Assembly: GCA_013152685.1 (NCBI GenBank)
Contig: JAADFX010000010.1
Location: forward strand, 1-36,111
DNA from: Methanobacteriota archaeon
Lineage (GTDB): Archaea > Hydrothermarchaeota > Hydrothermarchaeia > Hydrothermarchaeales > BMS3B
Direction: 5' to 3'
Length of the DNA stretch: 36,111 bases
The notes beneath the pieces were generated by a model. The model had not been told where the DNA came from. It did no database searches and saw only the letters and a program-made list of their open reading frames with translations. The position numbers and the translations under genes were made by a program. Each line of letters opens with the position of its first letter. Positions within the stretch are counted from its first letter, which is position 1. Positions 31,203 to 36,111 of the stretch are shown in pieces.

Positions 31203-31472
31203 TCACTTGGCCAGGGTTATCTCCATGCTGGACACGTTGATGGTACTCCCGTCCTCCCTGGTTATAGTCTCTGTTCCAATCTCTATGTTCTTCACCTTGA
31301 CCTCGGGCATGAAGCGGTTTCTGACTATCTCTGCGGTGTCCACCGCCCTGGAGATTGCCTGGCCCCTCGCCTTGATTGTAACCTCATTTGCGGTGTTCAG
31401 CTGGGTGGTCACAGCCAGAACGTAGTTCATCACGGGCTTGTTGCCGATATAAACGACGTTGTCCTCGCTCAT
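31203..31472 (-). CDS. albA: Chromatin/RNA-binding protein Alba
   Basis: This encodes 89 residues from the ATG at 31472, which is preceded by GGAGGAGG; the track start at 31496 adds eight residues ahead of that site and is unlikely. [16 protein letters not shown] contains the DNA-contacting Lys of Alba, and [22 protein letters not shown] is the helix-rich signature. Alba dimers coat archaeal DNA and bind RNA. A TATA-like ATTTAAAT (31508-31515) with a 13-nt leader and a very strong ribosome site suggests abundant expression. It is upstream of polB on the same strand, but polB has its own promoter. Confidence 0.95.
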
Positions 31473-31507
31473 GCTATCTACCTCCTCCTTACACATAGGA
31501 GCGGGAG

Positions 31508-31524: not shown

Positions 31525-32007
31525 CTATCCCCGCCTTCTCTCCTCGTAGCTCCTCAGCGCACCCCGGGCGTACTGCAGGAACGCGTCCCTGGGCACGTAG
31601 CCCATCACCCGCTCTATCACCTGGCCGTTCTCGTCGGTGAAGATAATCGCCGGCGGGTACTGCACCCCGTACTTCGGCGGAACCTCCTTGTCCCTGTCTA
31701 TGTTTATGGCCACCAGCACGAAGCGCTCCGTGAGCAGGGAGTTCACCTCGGGGTCGGGGTAGACCTCATCGTGGAGGCGCTTGCAGAACTTGCACCAGGT
31801 GGCCCAGAAGTAAAGAACCACCGGCTTCTGCTCCTGCCTGGCCTTCTCCAGCCCCGCCTCGTAGGAGTTGAGCCAGACCAGGTTTCCCACGTAGGTGTAG
31901 TTCTTGTCGCTCACCACGGGGGTGGTCTTGGCTGAGAGCACTGCGAAAGCCACAATTGCAAGCAGCGCGGCGAGGGTTATCAGGGTCTTGGGGTTTTTTG
32001 TGTCCAT
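31525..32007 (-). CDS. Membrane-anchored thioredoxin-fold protein (WCKFC)
   Basis: This 160-residue protein has one N-terminal membrane helix (about 9-25, [17 protein letters not shown]) and an external thioredoxin-like domain of the DsbD-C/thioredoxin_7 type. The active site is [13 protein letters not shown], and a cis-Pro region is YPPAIIFT. It should act in thiol-disulfide exchange or reduction outside the membrane. It is the last gene of a four-gene operon, 9 nt after the PCYCGC gene, which suggests that the Cys-rich PCYCGC protein could be its substrate or partner. Confidence 0.88.
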
Positions 32008-32016
32008 CCATCCACC

Positions 32017-32484
32017 TCACGAGGGCCAGGGTGTGGGCGTCGGGTCGGCGTACCTTCCCGCATATTTCGCGTCGATTGTAGCACGGATCTCCTGGAGGGA
32101 GTAGCCCCTGCGGTACATCTCGTAGCTCTCCAGCATCTCGTCAACGCAGATGAAGCAGTTTGCTCCGTGCGAGGTAAACCGCCCGTCGTCGCTCAGGAAG
32201 CAGTTGTACAGGCTTTTGTGCCCGGTGGGGAACTGCTCACTGCGCACGTCCTTGCAGCCGCAGTAGCAGGGCACCGCCCTGCCTATCTCAGGGTAGGCGA
32301 CGGCTATCCTGTAGGCGGTGAGCACCCTTTCATTTTTGTAGGCGTAGTCAGGAAGCTGAACCCTGGGAAGCTCCTCCTCCCCGTCCTTCGTGGCGAAGTA
32401 CACAAGCGTTCCGGCGATTACCACCAGCGACAGAATCAGCGCCGGATTTCTCTGCCTCTTCCGGGGCTTCCTCCTCTTCACCAT
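32017..32484 (-). CDS. PCYCGC-motif protein, membrane-anchored
   Basis: This 155-residue protein has a very basic N-terminus (MVKRRKPRKRQRN), one membrane helix (about 14-31) and an external domain with PCYCGC near residue 72, then GHKSLYNCFLSDDG and SHGANCFICVDEM. This matches the PCYCGC family known mostly from Gram-positive lipoproteins, whose function is unknown. Six cysteines and several His in the domain suggest metal binding or redox chemistry. Here the lipobox is replaced by an uncleaved anchor. It sits between a small membrane protein and a thioredoxin-fold protein. Confidence 0.8.
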   Translation of the reverse strand: MVKRRKPRKRQRNPALILSLVVIAGTLVYFATKDGEEELPRVQLPDYAYKNERVLTAYRIAVAYPEIGRAVPCYCGCKDVRSEQFPTGHKSLYNCFLSDDGRFTSHGANCFICVDEMLESYEMYRRGYSLQEIRATIDAKYAGRYADPTPTPWPS

Positions 32485-32532
32485 CTTATCCCTCTCCAGC
32501 GGACTAACTTAACCTTGTCAACTCTTTCGAAA

Positions 32533-32814
32533 CTACCTGGTGCTGATGTAGAGGAGCACCACCAGCGCTACCGTCTCAAAGGCCGACGCGAGCGCATGGT
32601 AGGGCTCGAAGGGGCACACGTCGTAGCCTGAGAAGAGGTAGAATATGCTGGGGCAGGACAGGAGGGCGTTTATGAAGAGCACCACCGCGAAGATAACCAG
32701 CCCCAGGGTAAAGGTGGAGCGCACCTTCCTGTAGTCCTGCAGGTAGAGGTAGATTAGGATTATCAGAAGCACCATGTTCAGAAAGTTTGAGACGGTGTAG
32801 ATGGCGTGGAACAT
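32533..32814 (-). CDS. Small three-helix membrane protein next to a winged-helix regulator
   Basis: This 93-residue protein has three hydrophobic helices (about 8-28, 34-53, 71-90), with a Cys pair in the second loop (SCPSIFYLFSGYDVCPFEPYH cut here to its ends). Proteins of this size and topology are often encoded beside ArsR-type regulators in archaea (haloarchaeal DUF7521-like); the match is by pattern, not proven. The gene starts 9 nt after the regulator's stop, so it is co-transcribed. Possible roles are membrane sensing for the regulator or a redox/metal function with the downstream PCYCGC and thioredoxin proteins. Confidence 0.7.
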   Translation of the reverse strand: MFHAIYTVSNFLNMVLLIILIYLYLQDYRKVRSTFTLGLVIFAVVLFINALLSCPSIFYLFSGYDVCPFEPYHALASAFETVALVVLLYISTR

Positions 32815-32823
32815 ACCTTCAAC

Positions 32824-33123
32824 TCACCTCCCTTTCTTTAACTTGCTTTTCCCAATTTTGCTCCAGATTTCTTCAAGCACGTGGATATTCTCCTCCATCT
32901 GCGGTGACAGAAAGTAGAGCCTCCCATACCTCTCACCCCTGGCAACAATTATCCTGTTCTTCTGGAGAACGCGCAGGTGGTGGCGCACAGTCTTGTAGTC
33001 AACACCCAGCTCCCGGGTGAGCTGATTGGCGTTGTAGGGGCGCTGCTTAAGTAGCCTGAGTATCATTGCACGGGTCTCTCCTCCCCGTGTGCCGGCGAGA
33101 AGCCACCAGAGAAGCCTTTTCAT
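32824..33123 (-). CDS. ArsR-like winged-helix transcription regulator
   Basis: This 99-residue protein has a helix-turn-helix NQLTRELGVDYKTVRHHLRVL and a wing NRIIVARGERYGRLYFLS, as in ArsR/MarR-type archaeal regulators. The C-terminal helix is Lys-rich. No Cys ligands are present, so metal sensing through ArsR-type Cys sites is unlikely. It is the first gene of a four-gene operon, and an imperfect palindrome covers its own start codon, which points to autoregulation. Confidence 0.85.
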   Translation of the reverse strand: MKRLLWWLLAGTRGGETRAMILRLLKQRPYNANQLTRELGVDYKTVRHHLRVLQKNRIIVARGERYGRLYFLSPQMEENIHVLEEIWSKIGKSKLKKGR

Positions 33124-33136
33124 TGGATATCGAATG
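33121..33136. promoter_or_regulatory. Imperfect palindrome over the regulator's start codon
   Basis: CATTgGATATCgAATG is symmetric except at two positions. It includes the ATG of the winged-helix gene and lies about 15-25 nt downstream of a TATA-like CTTTTAAG, so a bound dimer would block initiation. Candidate autoregulatory operator. Confidence 0.5.
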
Positions 33137-33180
33137 TTTTTTCAGGCTTAAAAGTTTTTCACCCCGTGGAGCGGCACACC

Positions 33181-33924
33181 CTAGGCGCTCCCCGCGGGAG
33201 TCAGGAGGGGGCAGGGATTCGGGATAGGAGGTGAAAACACATGAGGAAACCTGCCCCACAATCTATATATGAGCCTTCTAATATAAAAAGTTCTGCTAAA
33301 CCCATTTTTATCTAATTTAAAAAGTTTTTCAATCATTTTCTCCAATCCATCGCCCAGGGCACCGCCTCTATCCAGAACAACGGCGCATCCGGAGGATCTG
33401 ACCTCCTCGTACCCCGCTGCCGGTCCGGCCTCAGCCTCTGTTTTTATTATCACGTCCGCCCCGGACTCCAGGGAGGAGTACACGTGGGGAGGGTGCACAT
33501 ACTCGTGCACTGTGAAGAGGAGAACGCCGCCCATGCTCCTGGTGTAGGAGAACCTCTCCCGCAGGCGTTTTATCTGGCGCCTGTCTCCCACCCTGAAAAG
33601 AAAGGAGGAGAGGGAGTTTACAATTATGTTGCTGCTTAGCCTCTGCACGCCCGCGAGGAGGCTGTCCAGCCGCCGGCTGTGCAGCTGGCTTACCCGTCCC
33701 CTGAGCTCGGAGACCTTCCTGTAGTCCTCTATGCCCCAGCAGGTGCCGTCGATGTACAGCACCCGGGACAGCTCCTTCCCCAGTCCCAGGGACTCCTCTA
33801 TTTCCATGGGGCTGACCTCCGTGGTTATGTAGACGGCCTCCTCCCCCCTGCTCACCAGCTGCCCCAGGAGCCGGGCTGCAATTCTCCCCTTTCCCGTCCC
33901 CGGTGCCCCGGTGACCATTATCAC
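33181..33924 (-). CDS. Degenerate KaiC/RecA-like P-loop protein
   Basis: This 247-residue protein has the core of the archaeal KaiC/RadA-like family: MVTGAPGTGKGRIAARLL at the N-terminus, AVYITTEVSPMEIEESLG and IIVNSLSSFLF. Two ATPase positions are altered: Walker A ends GKG rather than GKT/S, and the Walker B Asp of the VIDSLS motif is Asn (VNSLSS). ATP hydrolysis may therefore be weak or lost. The C-terminal about 40 residues are basic and proline-rich (PPIPNPCPLLTP). The GTG at 33924 after GAGGGGTG is a better start than the track's ATG at 33957, which lies inside the receiver gene. It follows the receiver gene at once, so a joint signalling role is likely. Confidence 0.75.
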   Translation of the reverse strand: MIMVTGAPGTGKGRIAARLLGQLVSRGEEAVYITTEVSPMEIEESLGLGKELSRVLYIDGTCWGIEDYRKVSELRGRVSQLHSRRLDSLLAGVQRLSSNIIVNSLSSFLFRVGDRRQIKRLRERFSYTRSMGGVLLFTVHEYVHPPHVYSSLESGADVIIKTEAEAGPAAGYEEVRSSGCAVVLDRGGALGDGLEKMIEKLFKLDKNGFSRTFYIRRLIYRLWGRFPHVFSPPIPNPCPLLTPAGSA

Positions 33925-33931
33925 GCACCCC

Positions 33932-34312
33932 TCAGACGGTGGCGGTCCTCCCCGCATTCCTCAGCACCCACTCGATGGTTTTGAAAAGCTGCATCTTCTT
34001 AACGGGCTTGGGCACGTGGGCGTCAGCCCCCTGCTCGAAGCTCCTCTCCCTGTCGCCCACCTCGTAGAGTATTGTGAGCATTATAACCGGCGTGGTGCTT
34101 CCCAGCCTTCTCATCTCCCTCAGCGTCTCCCAGCCGTCCAGCTCCGGCATCATGATGTCCAGCAGGATTAGGTCCGGGGAGACCTCCTCCAGCATCTCGA
34201 GGGCGCGCTTCCCGCTCTCCGCCAGGTACACCTCGTAGCCCCTCTCCTCCAGCATCCTCCCCAGAATCCGCAGAAACTCCGGGTCGTCGTCCACGCAGAG
34301 TATCTTCACCAC
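33932..34312 (-). CDS. Stand-alone response regulator receiver protein
   Basis: This 126-residue CheY-like domain has CVDDDPEF, the phosphorylated Asp52 in ILLDIMMPELDG, the switch Thr in IMLTILYE and the Lys in VPKPVKK. No output domain is present. Unlike the other receiver in this window, it has no kinase gene beside it; the next gene downstream is the degenerate KaiC-like protein. A TATA-like ATAAAGTATA (34351-34360) and GGTGGTG before the ATG support the start. Confidence 0.9.
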   Translation of the reverse strand: MVKILCVDDDPEFLRILGRMLEERGYEVYLAESGKRALEMLEEVSPDLILLDIMMPELDGWETLREMRRLGSTTPVIMLTILYEVGDRERSFEQGADAHVPKPVKKMQLFKTIEWVLRNAGRTATV

Positions 34313-34350
34313 CGCTCTCCCCGCTTAAAAGCTGGGGGAGGCGGGCTACT

Positions 34351-34360
34351 TATACTTTAT
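34351..34360 (-). promoter_or_regulatory. TATA-like box of the receiver/KaiC-like operon
   Basis: ATAAAGTATA on the minus strand lies about 40 nt before the ATG at 34312, just after the hypB stop. It predicts a short leader carrying GGTGGTG. Confidence 0.4.
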
Positions 34361-34363
34361 TTT

Positions 34364-35041
34364 TCAGCGCCCAGAAGAAGTTGGCTTCAATTCCGCGACC
34401 CTGCGCAGGAAGCCGTACCAGCTGGAGAGGTTCTCCCCCGTCCTGGCCGAGAGCTGCAGCACCTCAAGCTCGGGGTTAAGCCGCCTCGCGTCCCGCGCCA
34501 TCTTCTCCGGGTCAGCGCCCACAAAGCTCGCCAGGTCGATTTTGTTGATTACCGCAAGCTGCGCCCTGCGGAAGATTCCGGGATGCTTGGCCACGATGTC
34601 GTCGCCCTCCGTCACGCTCACCACCACAACGCGCACCTGCGCCCCAAGCTCAAAGTCAGCGGGGCATATCAGGTTCCCAACGTTCTCCACGAAGATCAGG
34701 TCCAGCTCCTCCAGGGGCAGCTGCTCCAGCGCGTGCCCCACCAGGTGCGCGTCCAGGTGGCACTCCCTGCCGGTGTTGAGGGGCACCACCTCTATTCCAA
34801 GCCTCCTGAAGCGCTCTGCGTCCAGGCTTGCGACGACGTCTCCGGCAATGGCGGCGATGCGGTACTGCTTCAGCTCCCCCACGGCGAGCTCAATCAGGGT
34901 GCTCTTCCCCGAGCCTATGGCACCGCTCACCTCTACCGCCACCACGCCCTTCTCCTCCAGAAGCCTCCGGTTCCTCTCCGCCAGCTCGCGGTTCGCCTGC
35001 AGCAGGTCCTCCTGCACCTCCACCTCACTAACGCGGTGCAT
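34364..35041 (-). CDS. hypB: Hydrogenase nickel incorporation GTPase HypB
   Basis: This 225-residue GTPase delivers nickel to [NiFe] hydrogenase with HypA. It shows GAIGSGKST (Walker A, near 40), the interface metal site TGRECHLDAHLV, VENVGNLICPADF, VVSVTEGDD and VINKIDLA. The N-terminus lacks the His-rich or CxxCGC nickel-storage segment seen in some bacteria, as is usual in archaea. The start, the ATG at 35041, overlaps hypA by 14 nt. The gene ends the hypD-hypA-hypB run. Confidence 0.95.
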   Translation of the reverse strand: MHRVSEVEVQEDLLQANRELAERNRRLLEEKGVVAVEVSGAIGSGKSTLIELAVGELKQYRIAAIAGDVVASLDAERFRRLGIEVVPLNTGRECHLDAHLVGHALEQLPLEELDLIFVENVGNLICPADFELGAQVRVVVVSVTEGDDIVAKHPGIFRRAQLAVINKIDLASFVGADPEKMARDARRLNPELEVLQLSARTGENLSSWYGFLRRVAELKPTSSGR

Positions 35042-35360
35042 CCTCCACCACCTTCAGCCTTTCCAGAAGAAGCTCCTCTCCGGAGAGCACCTCCATTGCG
35101 GAGCCGCATCTCCCGCAGGTAAAGCTCTTTCCGCGCGTGCGGCAGCGCACACAGCGCAGCTCCGCCTCCACAATCCGCGTCTTGAGCTCTGCCCCCTCAA
35201 GGGCTGTGCCCCTGGAGGCTATCTCGAAGGCGAAGCGGAGCTGCTCCGCGTTTATGTGGGTGAGCTCTCCTATCGCTACCTGCACCTCAACCACGCGTCC
35301 CCTCTTAACCCTCTTCAGCGCCGCCTTCACAATTCCCAGAGCCACGCTAAGCTCGTGCAT
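35028..35360 (-). CDS. hypA: Hydrogenase nickel incorporation protein HypA
   Basis: This gives 110 residues from the ATG at 35360, with the required N-terminus MHELSVALGI, where His2 binds nickel. Zinc site: CVRCRT and CGRCGS. The track start at 35423 adds sequence that lies inside hypD and is wrong. One base separates the ATG from the hypD stop, and the end overlaps hypB by 14 nt, so the three genes are coupled. Confidence 0.95.
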   Translation of the reverse strand: MHELSVALGIVKAALKRVKRGRVVEVQVAIGELTHINAEQLRFAFEIASRGTALEGAELKTRIVEAELRCVRCRTRGKSFTCGRCGSAMEVLSGEELLLERLKVVEDAPR

Positions 35361-35361
35361 T

Positions 35362-36111
35362 CTACGCACCGTAGCGATAGGCGACGTTGCAGGTGCCCTC
35401 GCTGGAGACCATGCACGGCCCATAGGGCTTCGTGGGGGTGCAAGCTTTGCCGAACATCCTGCACTCCCTGGGCGAGAGCTTGCCTATAATCACCAGGTGG
35501 CAGCTGCACCCCGGGCGTATGTCTGTGCTTCGCCTCTGCTCTATGCCGTACCTCTCCCTGGCGTCATGGCGGGAGTACTCCTCCCTCAGCTTTAGGCCGG
35601 AGAAGGGCACCCTGCCTATTCCGCGCCAGTGCACCGTCGCAACCTCAAAGACCTCCTCCACGAGCCTCTGTGCTATGGTGTTGCCCTCGTAGCTCACCGT
35701 GCGGGTGTACTCGTTCTCCACCCTGGCATCGCCCTCCCTCACCTGCTTTATGAGCATCGCCACGCTCAGGAGGACATCCAGGGGCTCAAAGCCGGAGACC
35801 ACCACAGGCATGCTGTAAGCCCTTGCGAGCACCTCATAGGCGCGCGCGCCAATTATCGCCGACACGTGTCCGGGGGCGATGTAGCCCTCGAAGTGCAGGT
35901 CGCCCATCCCCAGCATGAGCTCCATCACCGGCACCGTAAGCCGGAGGGCGTTCAGGATGCTCAGGTTCTCCGGCAGCCCGCGCCTCACCTCTGCGGCGAC
36001 GCTGGGAGCTGTTGTATCCAGCCCGATGGAAAAGAACACGAACTCCCTCTCCGGCTCCCTCTGCGCGAGCTTCACCGCCTCGCGGATGCTGTAAACCACG
36101 CGCACATCCCC
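35362..36111 (-). CDS. hypD: Hydrogenase maturation protein HypD (C-terminal part)
   Basis: The reading frame enters from the window edge and gives about 249 residues of HypD, an iron-sulfur protein that assembles the Fe(CN)2CO group of [NiFe] hydrogenases with HypC. Visible motifs are FFSIGLDTTAPSVA, GFEPLDVL, RPGCSCHLVIIGK and the Cys-rich end FGKACTPTKPYGPCMVSSEG. The N-terminal third, including the first conserved CGTHE-type motif, is outside the window. It is upstream of hypA and hypB in one operon. Confidence 0.95.
   Translation of the reverse strand, partial: GDVRVVYSIREAVKLAQREPEREFVFFSIGLDTTAPSVAAEVRRGLPENLSILNALRLTVPVMELMLGMGDLHFEGYIAPGHVSAIIGARAYEVLARAYSMPVVVSGFEPLDVLLSVAMLIKQVREGDARVENEYTRTVSYEGNTIAQRLVEEVFEVATVHWRGIGRVPFSGLKLREEYSRHDARERYGIEQRRSTDIRPGCSCHLVIIGKLSPRECRMFGKACTPTKPYGPCMVSSEGTCNVAYRYGA

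Follow-up and report, generated by a model that had tools for sequence, protein, structure and literature searches.

A stretch of 36,111 nucleotides of DNA from a deep-sea hydrothermarchaeon (hereafter, the window) carries a genuine, conserved archaeal operon of four genes, which lie head to tail on the minus strand between positions 33123 and 31525 and encode a winged-helix regulator, a three-helix membrane protein, a PCYCGC protein and a membrane-anchored thioredoxin (Table 1). We put at even chances the reading that here the operon supplies an extracytoplasmic thiol-reducing pair, from thioredoxin to PCYCGC protein, serving apocytochromes. The wider question is by what means the thiols of apocytochromes or metal sites stay reduced on the outer side of archaeal and Gram-positive membranes.

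The genome carrying the operon measures 1.8 Mb, and its named relatives are Candidatus Pyrohabitans jungbluthii along with further Hydrothermarchaeota MAGs. The gaps between the genes are 9, 48 and 9 nt, in gene order, and from these short distances a single transcript over all four is likely. The original prediction had proposed a four-gene unit and had named separation of the genes as the observation that would speak against it. Neighbourhood comparison bore the unit out at the genus level, since the gene order does not vary among the five genomes of the genus Candidatus Pyrohabitans (Hydrothermarchaeota) examined. Beyond the genus the cohesion holds in part: the sister genus (G005, locus L023) has kept the PCYCGC–thioredoxin pair alone, with a transposase-like ORF upstream and no regulator or membrane protein there.

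Table 1. Features of the operon, its surroundings and the CcmH-like fusion genes (window positions, unless a locus is named)
Feature	Position	Strand	Evidence or remark
Winged-helix regulator, ArsR-type (HTH_5), 99 aa, without cysteine	32824..33123	-	HTH_5 E=5.9e-11
Three-helix membrane protein, 93 aa, two Cys	32533..32814	-	three predicted membrane helices
PCYCGC protein (PF13798), membrane-anchored, 155 aa	32017..32484	-	PF13798 E=3.1e-22
Membrane-anchored thioredoxin, WCKFC active site, 160 aa	31525..32007	-	Thioredoxin_2 E=4.3e-20
alba, next gene downstream	31203..31496	-	gap to thioredoxin 28 nt, with TATA-like TATTTAAAT
TATA-like element AAAACTTTTAAGC of presumed operon promoter	33146..33158	-	alignment of five upstream regions
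Imperfect 16-bp palindrome CATTGGATATCGAATG	33121..33136	.	overlaps regulator start codon; not conserved
CcmH-like-DUF1573 fusions	L043 1036-1797; L044 1036-1797; L077 8979-9821; L027 5324-6121; L028 40-837

The PCYCGC protein and its likeness to CcmH

The third gene product is a direct member of PF13798, a family without known function, with 79.5 bits against a gathering score of 25. The PCYCGC motif (P72–C77) is present together with the downstream C95, C110 and C113, and in the alignment the Cys and His columns (CYCGC, C95, H106 and C110xxC113) are nearly invariant. With respect to the NF041379 CYCXC (seleno)proteins, the score is 75.3 bits, below the curated cut-off of 90, and the protein has Cys in place of Sec; unlike NF041379 and OS_HP4, it is archaeal and encoded with a thioredoxin and a regulator. 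Selenoprotein forms of the PF13798 family carry UxxC (PMC13188914), which speaks for a redox-catalytic rather than a structural metal-binding role in this family. In the window protein, C110xxC113 is the likely redox site, because it is the sole CxxC.

The C-terminal part of the PCYCGC protein resembles CcmH in its pattern (C..C, helix, GxS-x-EI, helix, AxYxGxY-PTP). An hhalign comparison of 19 PCYCGC with 10 CcmH sequences gave a probability of 87% (E 4e-6), or 93% on the cores. The score was 41, whereas 150 column shuffles reached no more than 17.4 and the reversed profile 10; at the profile–profile level, shared ancestry of the helical core with CcmH (PF03918) is thus supported. Among 431 single targets, E. 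coli CcmH came first after a PCYCGC protein itself, and the top nine included five of the ten CcmH sequences; unrelated decoys took the remaining places with scores close to those of CcmH, and the single-sequence specificity for CcmH is therefore moderate. An AlphaFold model built from five sequences (pLDDT 75.6) was submitted to a blind Foldseek search of 350,542 PDB chains, in which the first two ranks were the CcmH structures 2kw0 (E. coli) and 2hl7 (P. aeruginosa), with probabilities of 0.72 and 0.66 and at most 0.11 for the rest. For this five-sequence model the E values are weak (0.25/0.42), TMt is 0.54/0.53, and the best match has a TM of 0.31/0.54.

On the other hand, none of the 19 PCYCGC members matched Pfam CcmH (PF03918) in single-sequence scans up to E=10, and the LRCxxCQ active-site motif of CcmH is absent from the PCYCGC protein, which has PCYCGC in its place and a CxxC further on. 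A PDB sequence search with the protein returned no match, and one with the PCYCGC profile returned chance matches only (sterol demethylase and one other). Likeness in profile and fold, combined with the missing Pfam match and LRCxxCQ motif, therefore suggests a distant, CcmH-like relative that is not a CcmH member. Like CcmH of the System I pathway of cytochrome c maturation (PF03918; the N-domain of E. coli CcmH, NrfF), it would be a membrane-anchored extracytoplasmic domain working beside a thioredoxin, and the two share by profile the C-terminal helix-GxS-xEI-helix-xYG core. Unlike CcmH, it carries a CxCxC along with an insert containing additional Cys/His, and its anchor is N-terminal whereas that of CcmH is C-terminal.

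A stretch preceding the PCYCGC start, TTGACAAGGTTAA (window 32485-32532), is conserved in all five species and is read through in frame in some of them; it may act as an internal element or belong to a longer N-terminal end of the PCYCGC protein.

Partner proteins and the cytochrome c maturation context

Fourteen full-length homologues of the thioredoxin were found at E<1e-40, seven of them linked to ccmF, one to ccdA and genes for the three-helix protein (3TM) and the winged-helix regulator (wHTH), and six to PCYCGC; this 14/14 linkage covers loci that were chosen because of their PCYCGC, ccm or 3TM genes and hence describes a biased sample. Identity to the window thioredoxin is 37–43% for the copies adjoining ccmF or ccdA, both in related genomes and in its own. 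One homologue sits in the ccmF locus L046 of G010, and a paralogue in the same genome (40% identical) lies directly beside ccmF (L095 7977-8453; CcmF_C E=1e-16). Compared with the CcmG type, the window thioredoxin has the fold, the anchor and the WCxxC, while linkage to ccm is seen in its paralogues and not in the window copy. A CcmG/ResA-like role is suggested by these traits. The likeness to the CcmG/ResA thioredoxins of the CcdA/DsbD pathway comprises the membrane anchor, the WCxxC and the ccmF-adjacent paralogue; unlike them, the window thioredoxin is encoded with PCYCGC instead of ccmF/ccdA, is of the Thioredoxin_2/7 type and falls under every NCBIfam equivalog cut-off.

No family was found for the three-helix membrane protein in a Pfam scan. 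Its two cysteines, Cys54 and Cys67, sit in the loop joining membrane helices 2 and 3, which is predicted to be extracytoplasmic by the positive-inside rule; the AlphaFold model has helices at residues 2-25, 32-52, 57-62 and 70-92. When it was used as a query against 101 genomes, relatives were located in the 3TM-Trx-CcmF-CcdA loci of G012, G018 and G019. Taken together, the regulator and the membrane protein are most closely related to the pair in the wHTH-3TM-thioredoxin-ccdA operon of G012, beside a ccmF cluster; the regulator that heads this operon is 64% identical to that of the window, and the same 10 kb contain a 3TM-Trx-CcmF-CcdA-(CcmH-like+DUF1573)-DUF1573-DUF1573 cluster.

ArsR-type metal sensing by the window regulator is unlikely, as it has no cysteine and scores 36.5 bits against NCBIfam HTH_metalloreg, below the cut-off of 55; on both counts it differs from the ArsR/SmtB metalloregulators. 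Because the regulator itself lacks cysteine, the membrane protein is a candidate thiol sensor. Two extracytoplasmic cysteines are found in 8 of 11 thioredoxin-linked 3TM copies and in two others, and in none of the copies linked to stress-protein or transporter genes, a pattern that is confounded by phylogeny. As a two-gene module, wHTH-3TM occurs in many archaea (L082-L091, L096), often adjoining universal-stress-protein (USP), TauE-type, CODH or CcdA-like genes. Since the pair adjoins stress-protein and transporter genes it is a general module, and the idea that it is specific to the PCYCGC–thioredoxin system was rejected.

The G001 genome contains a ccmABC-ccmE-ccmF operon, in which CcmE carries the described CPSKY variant (PMC3601427) and which includes neither ccmG nor ccmH. 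Four of the five Pyrohabitans genomes encode CcdA-type proteins, and multiheme cytochromes have been reported from Hydrothermarchaeota (PMC6775978, PMC6759336). The ccmABC-ccmE-ccmF set of Pyrohabitans resembles the streamlined Ccm of Methanosarcina (CcmABCEF), in which ccmG and ccdA are dispensable under reducing conditions (PMC9084895); this dispensability weighs against the cytochrome reading of the operon. Unlike Methanosarcina, the Hydrothermarchaeota add CcmH-like proteins, namely PCYCGC and a CcmH-like-DUF1573 protein. CcmH has been called universally absent from archaea (PMC9084895), with one exception reported in Ferroglobus (PMC4429474).

The separate CcmH-like-DUF1573 protein is encoded in at least G001 and G004 (PF03918 E=1.7e-4 to 5.7e-4), and PCYCGC is therefore not the sole CcmH candidate. 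The proposal that PCYCGC simply replaces a missing CcmH is weakened by this gene within the genus, by the several Hydrothermarchaeota in which Ccm is present and PCYCGC absent, and by Ccm-negative archaea that have PCYCGC. In G018 and G019, a (CcmH-like+DUF1573)-DUF1573 genes-PCYCGC-Trx locus exists in addition to separate 3TM-Trx-CcmF-CcdA loci. In the archaeal fusions (Table 1), a DUF1573 domain is joined to a CcmH-like N-part with CPCCG..., which matches PF03918 at E values as low as 1.7e-4; these fusion genes cluster with further DUF1573 genes in several genomes and lie near ccmF/ccdA in G012.

Proposed role and alternatives

The products of the operon would act as an accessory extracytoplasmic thiol-reduction module. 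Cytoplasmic electrons would cross the membrane via a CcdA protein whose gene lies at another place in the genome, and the anchored thioredoxin would take them up through WCKFC and pass them to the PCYCGC protein, whose cysteines (C110xxC113, probably helped by CYCGC) would hold the thiols of a substrate or reduce them. The CXXCH motifs of apocytochromes c, prior to heme attachment by CcmF, would most likely be the main substrate in Pyrohabitans. The winged-helix protein, which is free of cysteine, may pair with the membrane protein and its two cysteines as a two-piece sensor-regulator that tunes expression to the extracytoplasmic thiol state. What was computed is the conservation of the operon, the homology that relates its thioredoxin, membrane protein and regulator to ccmF/ccdA-linked genes, and the resemblance of PCYCGC to CcmH in profile and fold; from these we infer the electron path, the substrate and the sensing. 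The original prediction of an extracytoplasmic thiol or metal system had recognized the redox character and the right neighbourhood, but it missed the ccmF/ccdA links and the CcmH likeness of PCYCGC.

The distribution of PCYCGC argues against a purely cytochrome-related role. From genus to order level, PF13798 exceeded its cut-off in 10 of 20 genomes; outside the order, it did so in three others among the 394 archaeal genomes sampled (G231, G290 and G497), and in these three no PF01578 protein (CcmC/CcmF) was found. Bacterial plasmid copies occur in Burkholderia and Thermomicrobium; together with the three archaea outside the order, they show that the family, described in the original prediction as known mainly from Gram-positive bacteria, is not strictly Gram-positive.

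These copies bear on the chief rival, metal handling, which we consider unlikely, though less so than the other alternatives. According to it, PCYCGC, with its six Cys and two His, is an extracytoplasmic binder of copper or another soft metal, kept reduced by the thioredoxin and regulated in response to metal. Metal genes were present in four of the six bacterial plasmid loci examined, and comprised heavy-metal P-type ATPases, ArsR/SmtB regulators, a multicopper oxidase and CDF transporters, with a copper-binding protein and DsbD also among the neighbours. The G231 copy stands among genes for a cupredoxin, a Met-rich protein, a YHS-like protein and an HMA P-type ATPase (L056 6312-14272), which is likely a copper cluster, and CxCxC plus the conserved Cys/His could ligate metal. 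However, the other two bacterial loci contained no metal gene, nor did the Pyrohabitans operon or its flanks, where the regulator is moreover Cys-free and under the metalloregulator cut-off; within the order, the partner genes are ccm/ccdA.

A general extracytoplasmic disulfide reductase or isomerase, or a system for repair of oxidative damage, with no special cytochrome or metal substrate, appears improbable. It would agree with the thioredoxin fold and anchoring and with the two Ccm-less archaea in which PCYCGC precedes a gene for a CcdA/LysE-like membrane protein, but two observations speak against it, namely that homologues in relatives are repeatedly linked to ccmF and ccdA, and that PCYCGC is CcmH-like in profile and fold. 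Chance neighbourhood of the regulator–membrane protein pair and an unrelated PCYCGC–thioredoxin pair is highly improbable, for although the first pair is found beside USP/TauE/CODH genes and the second without it in G005, the order is common to five species, an orthologous wHTH-3TM pair heads Trx-CcdA in G012, and two of the gaps in the operon are of 9 nt.

To return to thiol reduction for apocytochromes, the Ccm-negative archaea, the bacterial metal loci and the separate CcmH-like-DUF1573 protein indicate that the role of PF13798 at the family level is broader, covering extracytoplasmic thiol or metal-thiol chemistry, of which the cytochrome branch would be a regional use. More tentatively, and with some doubt, PF13798 may be a divergent CcmH lineage, and the thioredoxin–PCYCGC pair of Hydrothermarchaeota a thiol branch devoted to cytochrome c maturation in archaea, under a two-piece membrane thiol sensor. 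If so, PCYCGC supplies the CcmH-like component presumed to be missing from archaea; PF13798 and the CcmH-like-DUF1573 fusions would then give the function of this family and the absence of archaeal CcmH a shared, testable answer.

Upstream region and flanking genes

The 16-bp imperfect palindrome reported on the start codon of the regulator exists, and at up to two mismatches CATTGGATATCGAATG is unique in the window. Nonetheless, 24 sites in the 36-kb window are as good (7/8 arm pairs), and the arms decay across the genus, with 6/8, 4/8, 4/8 and 3/8 pairs matched where the site aligns in the four remaining species; the palindrome was rejected as a conserved operator. As the site is not conserved, autoregulation through it is unsupported, as is the self-regulated repressor of the original prediction. 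What is kept in all five species, with one or two base changes, is AAAACTTTTAAGC, about 23-35 nt upstream of the regulator ATG. A second conserved stretch in the five species, GATA..CAATG, is next to the regulator start, and the two elements fit a TATA box followed by a leader that is very short or missing.

Upstream of the operon, the window contains a KaiC-like ATPase and a response regulator followed by hypB, hypA and hypD (33181-36105). A multiheme cytochrome gene is divergent to the operon in two species; in JdFR-16/17, it stands between the KaiC-like ATPase and the regulator. Downstream, alba probably forms a unit of its own, and a TATA-like element belonging to it lies in the intergenic gap. 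This thioredoxin–alba gap is enlarged to 224-273 nt, with GC-rich repeats, in two Juan de Fuca species (L030 9817-10040, L033 4259-4531), and measures 28-93 nt outside them.
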